IMG/VR virus record: IMGVR_UViG_3300046804_001715
Span: 1 to 24,853 of that record
DNA from: a virus
Direction: 5' to 3' (one strand)
Length of the DNA stretch: 24,853 nucleotides
The notes below the pieces were generated by a model, which was given only the letters and a program-made list of their open reading frames with translations, had not been told where the DNA came from and did not search any database. Made by a program: the position numbers and the translations under genes. This document shows, piece by piece, positions 8,842-13,888 of the stretch (position 1 is its first letter; each line of letters starts with the position of its first letter).

Positions 8842-9014
8842 AGGTGCTCTCCACTACACTATATATCTGCTACGATACTATGTAGTTTTGAGCGTTTCCC
8901 TGCCTAAACAGGGAGGGATGATAGAGGCTTGATTGCGAAAGGCAATCTGTTTGAGCATATCATAGGACCGTGCCAATCTCGGACTAGGCTAACTTATACT
9001 ACCTGGCCAGATAG
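8842..9014 (-). other. Structured non-coding spacer between tRNA-Leu and tRNA-Gly
   Basis: 173 nt without a plausible gene but full of pairing. On the + strand: CCCTG/CAGGG (about 8899-8914), a long stem-loop with ATGATA/TATCAT arms enclosing GATTGC-GAAAG-GCAATC (about 8930-8967), CTACCTGGCCAGATAG (about 8999-9014), and CTAC-GATACTAT-GTAG (about 8870-8885). Probably part of the tRNA precursor transcript; possibly one or more stable small RNAs like the RNA C/D species of the T4 tRNA cluster (analogy only). Confidence 0.55.
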
Positions 9015-9052
9015 TTGGCGTCTTTCTAGGCTATCTGCCTAACGACTACCAA
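9015..9052 (-). ncRNA. Covarying 38-nt hairpin element, copy A (after tRNA-Leu)
   Basis: Begins at the base after the tRNA-Leu discriminator. Three stacked helices: TTGG/CCAA (outer), GTC/GAC, and TAGGC/GCCTA closing an AGATA loop, separated by small internal loops. The other copy at 12211-12248 has the same length and 32 of 38 bases; it keeps every pair through two compensatory swaps (9020-9046 G-C versus C-G; 9029-9039 G-C versus T-A). Strand is inferred from the tRNAs. Confidence 0.75.
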
Positions 9053-9134
9053 TGTCGGTAAGAGGACTTGAACCTCCACGAATTACTTCACTGGAACCTA
9101 AACCCAGCGCGTCTACCAATTCCGCCATACCGAC
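9053..9134 (-). tRNA. tRNA-Leu (UAG)
   Basis: 82 nt, class II. Acceptor GTCGGTA/TACCGAC, D-arm with GGTAGAC, anticodon loop TTTAGGT (TAG) on CTGGG/TCCAG, T-loop TTCAAGT. The 38-nt hairpin follows its discriminator base directly. Confidence 0.95.
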
Positions 9135-12123: not shown

Positions 12124-12210
12124 TTGATGGAGTAAGTGTGATATACCTCAAGGATATAACAGTGACTTACCCTCTATCTACGACTCTACGGAAGATACCC
12201 GTAGTAGAAG
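12124..12210 (-). other. Structured spacer between tRNA-Ser and tRNA-Pro
   Basis: 87 nt without a gene. Reverse strand shows CTACGG-GTATCTT-CCGTAG (about 12205-12185) and a longer stem GTAAGT/ACTTAC (about 12171-12132) capped by ATATCC-TTGA-GG-T-ATAT. The CC-TTGA-GG cap recurs in the hairpin before the 51-residue gene (8753-8768). Confidence 0.6.
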
Positions 12211-12248: not shown

Positions 12249-12333
12249 CGGAAGTGGTAGGATTCGAACCCACGATGGCTTTCACCATGCTTGTTTTCAA
12301 GACAAGTTCCTTCAACCACTCGGACACACTTCC
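12249..12333 (-). tRNA. tRNA-Ser (UGA)
   Basis: 85 nt, class II. Acceptor GGAAGTG/CACTTCC, discriminator G, anticodon loop CTTGAAA (TGA) on CTTGT/ACAAG, variable arm ATGGTGAAAGCCAT, T-loop TTCGAAT. A consensus promoter ends about 17 bp upstream. Confidence 0.96.
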
Positions 12334-12391: not shown

Positions 12392-13888
12392 TCAGAAGGT
12401 AAACTTCGTTTGAATCACGCCACCCCAGTTAGAGGAAGCATTTTGGAATGCTTGGTTGTTAGCAACGTAGATGATAGCAGGAGTGATACTAATGTTATCA
12501 GATACTTTGTACTTGTAGAAGATTTCAAGTAGGCTAGCTTTCTCGCTGAGACCAGCAGCATTGCCAGGTTGACCATAGGCAACACCAGCACCATTACCCT
12601 TAGCAAATACATCGCTCCACTGAAGACCAGCAAACCATGTCTGAGAGTTGGTAGCACCAGCAGGAGTAGAAGGACCACTCACAGTGTTCCAACCATAAGC
12701 ACCGCTCACAGAAGGAATAATACCAGAGGTCTTAGGTTGCCAGTAAGCGTTGATAGCATAACCATTGGAGCTTTGACCAGCAGCAAGAGCACCAGAAGCA
12801 CCCAGAAGACCGTTGAAGGTGCGGACGCGAGATCCCTGTGTGCCATAACGGTAACCGAAAGCGATACCATACTGAGGCGCACGGTAACCAATCTGAGCCA
12901 TGGTGTTCAGAGCACCAGCAGCATTGAATACACCAGTATCACTGTTGTCGCCATTCTGAGCAACGTAGTTTACACCAGCGACAATACCCTTAGTTCCAGG
13001 TTGAACATACTGAGCACCGAAACCAGCACCAGTTGCCTTGTTATAGACACCAGGAGCACCAGCAACAGCAAAGAAGTCAAGGATTTCTGAGCGATAAGCA
13101 GAAGGAATCCATGCCATCTCAGTGTTACGAACCAGAGGACCAGCAGTAAGAGTTACACCCTTAGCAAGTGCTGGAAAACTATAGTACAAACGGTCAAGGG
13201 TTACTTGGTTTTCATAAGTTTCTGCTTTATCCAGTTTCAGAATAGAAGAAGAACTTCCGAAAGGTTGAGCACTGAAGTTACCAGAACGAAGACGAGTACG
13301 AAGCAAATCTTTGCCAGTGAACGAAGTGTCAAAATTTAAACGAAGATCGTAGTTGAAAGCAGTATTGCCAACGTTAGCACCAGCGGTGGTTTTAGCACCA
13401 GGAACTCCACCAATAACAAAGTTTGCTTCACCCTTCAGTTTAGTAGTGGTGGAAAACTGAGTTGCTTGCAATTGACCAACTTTATTCTCAAGTCCATCAA
13501 CACGAGCAGTGATAACAGAGAGTTCTTTATCAAACTCAGCAAGAAGACGCTTGAGTTCATCGGTAGTTTCGGTTACACGATCAAGGCAAGCATTCAGAAG
13601 AGCTGCTGCCTCAAAACGAGTCATTGCTTTGCCGCCACCATAGGTGCCGTTAGGATAACCAGCAACGCAACCATATCGGTCTACGAGGTTGGTGAGTGCC
13701 TGATATGCCCAGTCAGTAGGCTTAACATCAGAGAGTTGTGTAATGCTCGTAACCTGATCTTGAGAGTATTGATTGACTGCTGTTATGTTAAGATCTGCTG
13801 CATTTGCAACAGCAGGAGCAATCATACTCACAGCAACGGGCGCGAACATCAGTTGTTTGAGTTTCATAAAATTTTTACTAAACGACAT
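12392..13888 (-). CDS. SomA-like outer-membrane porin (SLH + OprB)
   Basis: 498 residues as drawn; the homologous start is more likely ATG 13867 (MKLKQLMFAPVAVSM), giving 491. A signal peptide ends APAVANA. Then an SLH domain (DVKPTDWAYQALTNLVDRYG... AMTRFEAAALLNACLDRV, about residues 53-105) that binds peptidoglycan, a coiled coil (about 105-140), and an OprB-type beta barrel ending in Phe (TKFTF). This is the architecture of the major porin of marine Synechococcus. A phage copy would be inserted in the host outer membrane, changing permeability or masking receptors (inference). A near-consensus promoter and a 5-bp leader hairpin (GCCTC/GAGGC) precede it. Probably acquired from a host. Confidence 0.92.
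   Translation of the reverse strand: MSFSKNFMKLKQLMFAPVAVSMIAPAVANAADLNITAVNQYSQDQVTSITQLSDVKPTDWAYQALTNLVDRYGCVAGYPNGTYGGGKAMTRFEAAALLNACLDRVTETTDELKRLLAEFDKELSVITARVDGLENKVGQLQATQFSTTTKLKGEANFVIGGVPGAKTTAGANVGNTAFNYDLRLNFDTSFTGKDLLRTRLRSGNFSAQPFGSSSSILKLDKAETYENQVTLDRLYYSFPALAKGVTLTAGPLVRNTEMAWIPSAYRSEILDFFAVAGAPGVYNKATGAGFGAQYVQPGTKGIVAGVNYVAQNGDNSDTGVFNAAGALNTMAQIGYRAPQYGIAFGYRYGTQGSRVRTFNGLLGASGALAAGQSSNGYAINAYWQPKTSGIIPSVSGAYGWNTVSGPSTPAGATNSQTWFAGLQWSDVFAKGNGAGVAYGQPGNAAGLSEKASLLEIFYKYKVSDNISITPAIIYVANNQAFQNASSNWGGVIQTKFTF

Follow-up and report, generated by a model that had tools for sequence, protein, structure and literature searches.

What is the hairpin of 38 nucleotides (nt) that follows directly on two tRNAs of a cyanophage, and what might it do? 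The question is raised by a stretch of 24,853 nt (the window), which comprises positions 1 to 24,853 of the IMG/VR virus record IMGVR_UViG_3300046804_001715 and is a cyanomyovirus fragment with Synechococcus phages as its nearest records. Besides a wcaG RNA and a glutamine riboswitch, the window encodes 13 tRNAs; all of these are minus-strand genes, and two of them carry the hairpin. We find that this hairpin belongs to a previously undescribed family of structured RNAs that is confined to phages, and we tentatively propose that it acts against a host RNA-binding protein.

An earlier reading of the letters of this DNA (the original prediction) had described both segments, and most of that description was accurate. 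Read on the minus strand, copy 1 runs from 9052 to 9015 behind tRNA-Leu(UAG) (9053-9134) and copy 2 from 12248 to 12211 behind tRNA-Ser(UGA) (12249-12333). CCA is not encoded in either tRNA gene, and in both cases the discriminator (A9053 of tRNA-Leu; G12249 of tRNA-Ser, the latter by the Rfam boundary 12249-12333) is immediately followed by the first base of the hairpin. Copy 1 is composed of an outer helix P1 (UUGGU/GCCAA), a bulged A, a second helix P2 (GUC/GAC) and the core CGUUAGGC-AGAUA-GCCUAGAA, and copy 2 of P1 (UUGGU/ACCAA), P2 (CUC/GAG) and the core CGUUAUGC-AGAUA-GCAUAGAA. As had been stated, there are six differences between the copies, and two pairs of them (9020/9046 and 9029/9039) are compensatory. 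The other two had been placed in internal loops, which does not hold for 9019/12215: this position gives U-G in copy 1 and U-A in copy 2 and extends the outer helix. The copies score 62.4 and 64.9 bits with our model R1, their folding z-scores against shuffles are -4.4 and -4.2, respectively, and the window holds no other match (0 expected from dinucleotide shuffles). Because the tRNAs and the sequence beyond the 38 nt differ, a recent duplication of a tRNA together with its trailer is ruled out. No family of Rfam 15 matches the element at its gathering score, in agreement with the earlier statement that no named family was known for it.

Further copies with compensatory changes, on whose existence in relatives the original prediction had hinged, are clearly present, and the selection for RNA structure that it proposed is borne out. 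Across 69 distinct sequences, a model of 14 pairs is paired in 94.8% of cells vs 75.0% in shuffled ones, with 177 double-changed cells where 59 are expected; the covariation score of 0.532 (0.181 expected) was reached by 0 of 500 shuffles, and covariation was lost when the partner strand was slid. P1 (5 bp) varies freely and is usually followed by the bulged A, and P2 (3 bp) occurs as CUC/GAG, GUC/GAC, CGC/GCG or UUC/GAA. The family core reads C-G-Y-T-R-N-G-C-[HNAYA]-G-C-N'-Y-A-G-A-A. Its invariant part of 21 nt consists of a C-G pair, a G facing A-A-R, and the stem P3 of 6 bp (Y-G, U-A, R-Y, N-N', G-C, C-G), which is closed by C-G under the H-N-A-Y-A loop. The loop had been called a fixed AGATA, which is true of both window copies and not of the relatives: free-loop scans returned AGATA (130), ACATA (40), CCATA (14), TCATA (12), AGACA (10), AAATA (5) and ACACA (3), always with A at loop position 3. 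Variant scans added AAATA, ACATA, ATATA, AGACA and other loops, CGCTA, as well as stems such as CGTTGGGC...GCCCAGAA, the changes being nearly always complementary. When the outside was fixed and the loop-closing C was excluded, no stretch with a non-C at position 16 was found, vs 111 stretches of the same class when C was required, and a search with the loop-closing GC...GC freed gave chance matches only; the isolate S-B05 has U-G at the loop-closing pair. Because part of the core was kept constant in most scans, the invariance at those positions comes partly from the choice of matches. Judged by its sequence, the core is so invariant that it must be required for binding something.

In total, we collected 319 copies (228 distinct contexts) from IMG/VR contigs and from five isolated Synechococcus phages, S-SZBM1, DSL-LC02, DSL-LC03, S-EIVl and S-B05. 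The family thus has hundreds of members in environmental double-stranded DNA phages and is essentially absent from cells. The exact core CGTTANGCAGATAGCNTAGAA occurs in 99 stretches of IMG/VR and, searched as a strict pattern, nowhere in 84,980 prokaryote species genomes. The relaxed core gave 38 matches in the same genomes, of which one, in single copy, proved real on inspection. It lies on a small contig (DKPS01000241.1; locus L329) of the Saprospiraceae (Bacteroidota) metagenome-assembled genome UBA7328, is identical to the element of one of our phage groups (L178), and probably marks a wrongly binned phage contig. Cyanobacterial genomes were covered by these strict and relaxed pattern scans only, and none of 150 Methylophilaceae genomes had the element, a weak test without positive control. 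Among the cyanophage isolates of the collection, a word-based search detected it in very few; P19250A and S-CBS4, which are relatives of carriers, do not. The element is in single copy in 311 of 315 loci and in 47 of 48 whole records with a match, usually even in records of 100-370 kb; two copies are found in the window and in DSL-LC02.

Comparison of whole records distinguished at least five carrier lineages, namely Kyanoviridae (psbA present), S-EIVl-like phages, S-CBS4-like siphoviruses and two others. A jumbo carrier lineage has a terminase 50% identical to that of PA5oct, and a further lineage, with a terminase 61% identical to that of Methylophilaceae phage P19250A, has no gene in common with the other lineages at E<1e-8. 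No protein family is common to all 16 compared records (best 12 of 16, BLAST E<1e-4). Therefore, a phage-encoded partner appears unlikely and a host-encoded one more likely, allowing that a short or divergent protein could escape such a search. Where Pfam gave a name to the most widely shared families, it was that of a general phage gene or of a metabolic one (ThyX, HNH, dCTP deaminase, AdoMet decarboxylase). As a separate observation, a solitary MazE-type antitoxin gene (Pfam PF04014) is present in 7 of the 16 carrier phages (S-SZBM1 (W01), 176913-177086, and relatives).

The same core, with altered outer helices, recurs on several scaffolds. Behind a tRNA stand 141 of the 319 copies, 95 of them beginning exactly at the next base; the remaining 178 lie inside tRNA-like RNAs (38) or elsewhere (140). 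The carrier tRNAs represent no fewer than 11 isoacceptor types (Gly, Leu, Thr, Ser, Asn, Arg, Ile, Asp, Pro, Met, Val); in S-SZBM1, the carrier is tRNA-Pro. Usually one tRNA of a cluster has the element, and the median number of tRNAs on the same strand in these loci is 7. In the tRNA-like RNAs, the core forms the junction of D stem and anticodon arm together with the anticodon arm itself. This scaffold is a cloverleaf with acceptor, D, anticodon and T arms (alignment A4), which the window copies are not; its acceptor and T stems covary, and its T loop reads UUCGAUU. Position 33 is A in 16 of 16 tRNA-like rows and A, C or U across the family, and there is no seven-base U33 anticodon loop. ARAGORN reported some of these RNAs as tRNA-Ile(gat). 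Other copies sit in longer intergenic hairpins, in a structured module GATAGAG...TCCATC, or in TTGGGCG...GTAAGTCCCAA hairpins. A GTAAGTC segment recurs closing core-bearing hairpins (TTGGGCG...GTAAGTCCCAA; GACGCAAGTAAGTCG) in L004, L014, L145, L204 and L378 and in L178-type loci. In L385, L408, L422 and L234, the outer stem beneath the element, with GGGGGAAA.../...GAGTACCCC, resembles an internal loop of the bulged-G (loop E) kind.

No neighbouring gene is common to these contexts; frequent neighbours are specific to lineages or to tRNA clusters. Antitermination in cis of downstream genes is ruled out for L083 and L263, where the genes downstream of the element are antisense. In 63 and 58 tRNA-cluster loci, respectively, two families of small proteins with HNH- or zinc-ribbon-like motifs (by eye) are encoded downstream, on the same strand and at a distance of a few hundred bases; they may be homing endonucleases by which tRNA/RNA islands spread.

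A frequent neighbour of the element is abiF RNA (RF03085), the antitoxin of AbiF/Abi_2 HEPN toxins, which occurs solitary in cyanophage S-CREM1 (PMC12373285, PMC9964418). Words of the abiF type (ATGCWCAAAC) number 95 in our loci, and 68 of them lie within 500 nt of the element on the same strand, vs 5.4 expected. The Rfam abiF model matched in 13 records, in ten of them above its cut-off, with several matches 18-260 nt from the element. In S-CBS4-like phages, the core-bearing tRNA-like RNA follows abiF RNA after 18-28 nt, a proximity for which no tRNA cluster could account. The window itself contains what, by the consensus, appears to be a circularly permuted abiF-type motif (8920-8961, minus strand; GAUAU-GCU-CAAAC-[AGAUUGC cuuuc GCAAUC]-A-AGC-CUCU-AUC), 54 nt beyond copy 1 and found also in L041, L072 and L092. 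It keeps the inner AGC/GCU helix and the CAAAC loop, with the hairpin shifted to the other side, and its closing helix in L092 is a compensatory GACUGC/GCGGUC. The Rfam abiF model does not match it because the order of the elements is changed.

Additionally, other RNA modules gather around the element. A minus-strand hairpin CTATCTGGCCAGGTAG (8999-9014) lies directly 3' of copy 1, as it does of the element in L041, L064, L072 and L092. Directly 3' of copy 2 is the hairpin CTTCTACTACGG...CCGTAG (12179-12210, minus strand), which stands beside the element in 16 of 16 copies in our loci, followed by the GATAGAG...TCCATC module (12126-12178, minus strand). The latter is another undescribed recurrent RNA: 78 of its 102 copies lie within 500 nt of the element, which is nested inside it in L020/L048-type phages and in L195. 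Similar enrichment applies to a second tRNA-like RNA, AACAAGGAACGTT, CTTCTACTACGG and GGAAGTTAAGTC. The second tRNA-like RNA (TAGTCYATTGGYAAGGAC...) has a CCCTGACAAGGG-type hairpin in the place of the anticodon arm (L048, from 1663), occurs also downstream of the element in L012, L044, L049, L056 and L143, lies within 500 nt of the element in 38 of 39 copies, and is in some cases labelled tRNA-???(gaca) by ARAGORN. The hairpin GGGTRYAACAAGGAACGTTGYA belongs to the same arrays (L021, L040, L055, L081 and others; 26 of 28 copies near the element). As to proteins, the tRNA-Ser of the window adjoins an open reading frame of 498 amino acids (12392-13888, minus strand) that resembles, by eye only, a cyanobacterial porin/S-layer-homology protein and has relatives in 22 loci.

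What we observed directly is the structure with its covariation, the restriction to phages, the single copy, the exchange of scaffolds and the clustering with abiF-type RNA; beyond this, we infer processing, action in trans, a host partner and a defence target. Because the core is constant, the scaffolds are exchangeable and compatible with action in trans, the element is in single copy and confined to phages, and abiF RNA keeps it company, we tentatively propose that the hairpin acts in trans and titrates a host RNA-binding protein, most likely an RNase of a defence or abortive-infection system. Phages would graft the core onto any scaffold that gives a stable RNA. In the tRNA-trailing form, cleavage by RNase Z after the discriminator would set the 5' end of the hairpin; in the alternative forms, the core would stand where a tRNA-shaped RNA should have its anticodon arm, or be placed in a longer intergenic hairpin. 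The scaffold would thus provide production and stability and the core the ligand, and titration would work as for solitary abiF RNA, pseudo-ToxI RNA and RNA anti-CRISPRs. Toxins that could serve as targets are available in the host of S-SZBM1, the estuarine Synechococcus CB0101, which has seven type II toxin-antitoxin pairs (PMC5498466); none of them is linked to the hairpin RNA.

Several points weigh against this proposal. Neither a toxin nor a defence gene nor a host RNA bearing the core turned up, which leaves the hairpin with no known object of mimicry. The jumbo and the Methylophilaceae-phage-like lineages carry the element without detectable abiF RNA, and the co-location elsewhere may merely reflect shared hot spots for RNA genes. 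The hairpin RNA itself is known here from DNA sequence alone, and a host range beyond Synechococcus is suggested by relatives only.

Among the other explanations, the one that survives best holds that the hairpin, with no link to defence, binds conserved host machinery and redirects it during infection, be it RNA polymerase, an RNase, or a protein of the ribosome or of tRNA handling. The carrier lineages are unrelated, with nearest relatives that infect Synechococcus, Methylophilaceae and possibly other hosts, and its partner would therefore have to be conserved; the want of a phage protein common to the carriers also suits such a role. The clustering with abiF-type RNA speaks against it, as does the patchy presence among cyanophage isolates, which fits an arms race better than the takeover of a core function, and we regard this explanation as rather doubtful.

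Somewhat less probable still, we consider it unlikely that the core is a decoy of the anticodon arm, a narrow form of the titration proposal that overlaps with a target in defence. The core would mimic tRNA positions 25-45 (C25-G10, G26 facing A44, stem 27-43, seven-base loop C-H-N-A-Y-A-G) and soak up an anticodon nuclease or another enzyme of the anticodon arm. Such a decoy would account for the absence of the core from cellular antitoxin RNAs. It also agrees with the exact position of the core at the anticodon arm in S-CBS4-like phages and a few others, where the other stems covary, and with the tRNA-Ile(gat) calls. The decoy would copy no single tRNA, since position 33, universally U in tRNAs, can be A, C or U here, position 34 varies freely and C32 pairs with G38; the stem sequence is not known to match any tRNA.

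A role in cis, as a tRNA trailer or a processing, termination or stability signal of phage tRNA operons, takes up the trailer and the processing signal suggested in the original prediction. The hairpin is strong, and the copies behind tRNAs, most of them at the very next base, would fit. As a general function it is already contradicted: the element usually marks one tRNA of a cluster, more than half of the copies are not behind a tRNA, 140 having none adjacent and 38 replacing an anticodon arm, no T run lies 3' of the window hairpin, and a generic signal needs no invariant loop and core. We therefore give this role little chance. That both window carriers are class II tRNAs turned out to be coincidence, the carrier tRNAs of the family being mostly class I, while the further suggestion of a small stable RNA is compatible with the data. 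Equally improbable is a site at which a phage protein binds for regulation, packaging or the localisation of RNA. Hairpins that bind proteins typically combine an invariant core with variable flanks; the comparison of the 16 records, within which a short or fast-evolving protein could be missed, and the lineage that shares no gene with the others argue against it. Some copies do stand at 3' ends of tRNAs, and HNH endonuclease-like genes (by eye) are frequent nearby in tRNA clusters, as would suit a hairpin of mobile DNA or a target of recombination that passes from phage to phage and is copied there. We hold this to be highly improbable, given the compensatory changes of the outer helices, the core kept inside tRNA-like RNAs with covarying helices, and that no conserved boundary or target duplication was seen.

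Returning to titration of a host protein, the family may, with slightly less assurance than we attach to titration as such, represent an inhibitor module invented by phages, an RNA without cellular counterpart that is kept in RNA counter-defence islands against a host system. On such islands the core would be found on tRNA trailers, in anticodon arms of sham tRNAs and in intergenic hairpins, in arrays with abiF RNA, circularly permuted abiF and the second sham tRNA. If it is a counter-defence RNA, the hairpin points to an unknown host target and offers a sequence handle for finding it. Phage tRNA clusters would then serve as islands of RNA inhibitors as well, a possibility relevant to the long-standing problem of the function of the non-tRNA small RNAs encoded in them. 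Further, since the core serves as the anticodon arm of non-decoding tRNA shapes, "tRNAs" annotated in phages may in some cases be something else.

How does the element compare with known systems? The closest is abiF RNA, which acts on the AbiF toxin, a toxic HEPN RNase, by binding and neutralising it both in cis and in trans (PMC12373285). Both are hairpins of about 37 nt with an internal loop, a conserved core and a freely changing outer stem, both are solitary in phages, and they are often immediate neighbours. They differ in the core (conserved AAGCCUCUCAACGAUGCUCAAA in abiF RNA, which the element lacks, vs CGYURNGC-HNAYA-GCN'YAGAA) and in distribution, as abiF RNA is found in many bacteria beside its toxin whereas the element is essentially confined to phages. 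Over the element, the abiF model gave no match, whether the limit was set at E<=5 or at E<=10, and its 37-bit threshold was not reached. RNA anti-CRISPRs (Racrs) are solitary repeat units of phages that copy host CRISPR repeats (PMC10651486). Like the element, they are small hairpins of which a phage has a single one, and in both cases the proposed role is to sequester an RNA-binding protein of the host; unlike Racrs, the element has no host repeat with its core among the 84,980 species genomes. Pseudo-ToxI of phage PhiTE is a phage RNA that mimics an antitoxin (PMC3475682), and the likeness to type III antitoxins lies in a phage RNA neutralising a host endoribonuclease, as proposed for the element, and in the size class of 36 nt. 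Unlike ToxI, a pseudoknot of tandem repeats for which a host cognate exists, the element is a single hairpin without one, and the tandem repeats before a toxin gene that characterise ToxI, CptI and TenpI were not found, nor was a common adjacent protein family. A kissing-loop partner TATCT downstream of the AGATA loop was not enriched (5 observed vs 3.1 expected).

Phage tRNAs are also known to evade tRNA-targeting defence (PMC11555353). They are tRNA-like molecules set against tRNA-cleaving systems, and one scaffold of the element is a complete tRNA shape; the phage tRNAs decode, whereas the scaffold has a non-decoding hairpin as its anticodon arm, and the hairpin exists outside tRNA scaffolds as well. 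Stable RNAs C and D of phage T4 are small RNAs without known role that are encoded among tRNAs, and they resemble the element in this setting, by description and not by sequence. By sequence features, the window copies are neither abiF RNA, CRISPR-repeat mimics, type III antitoxins nor tRNAs, and they could nonetheless work in a similar way.
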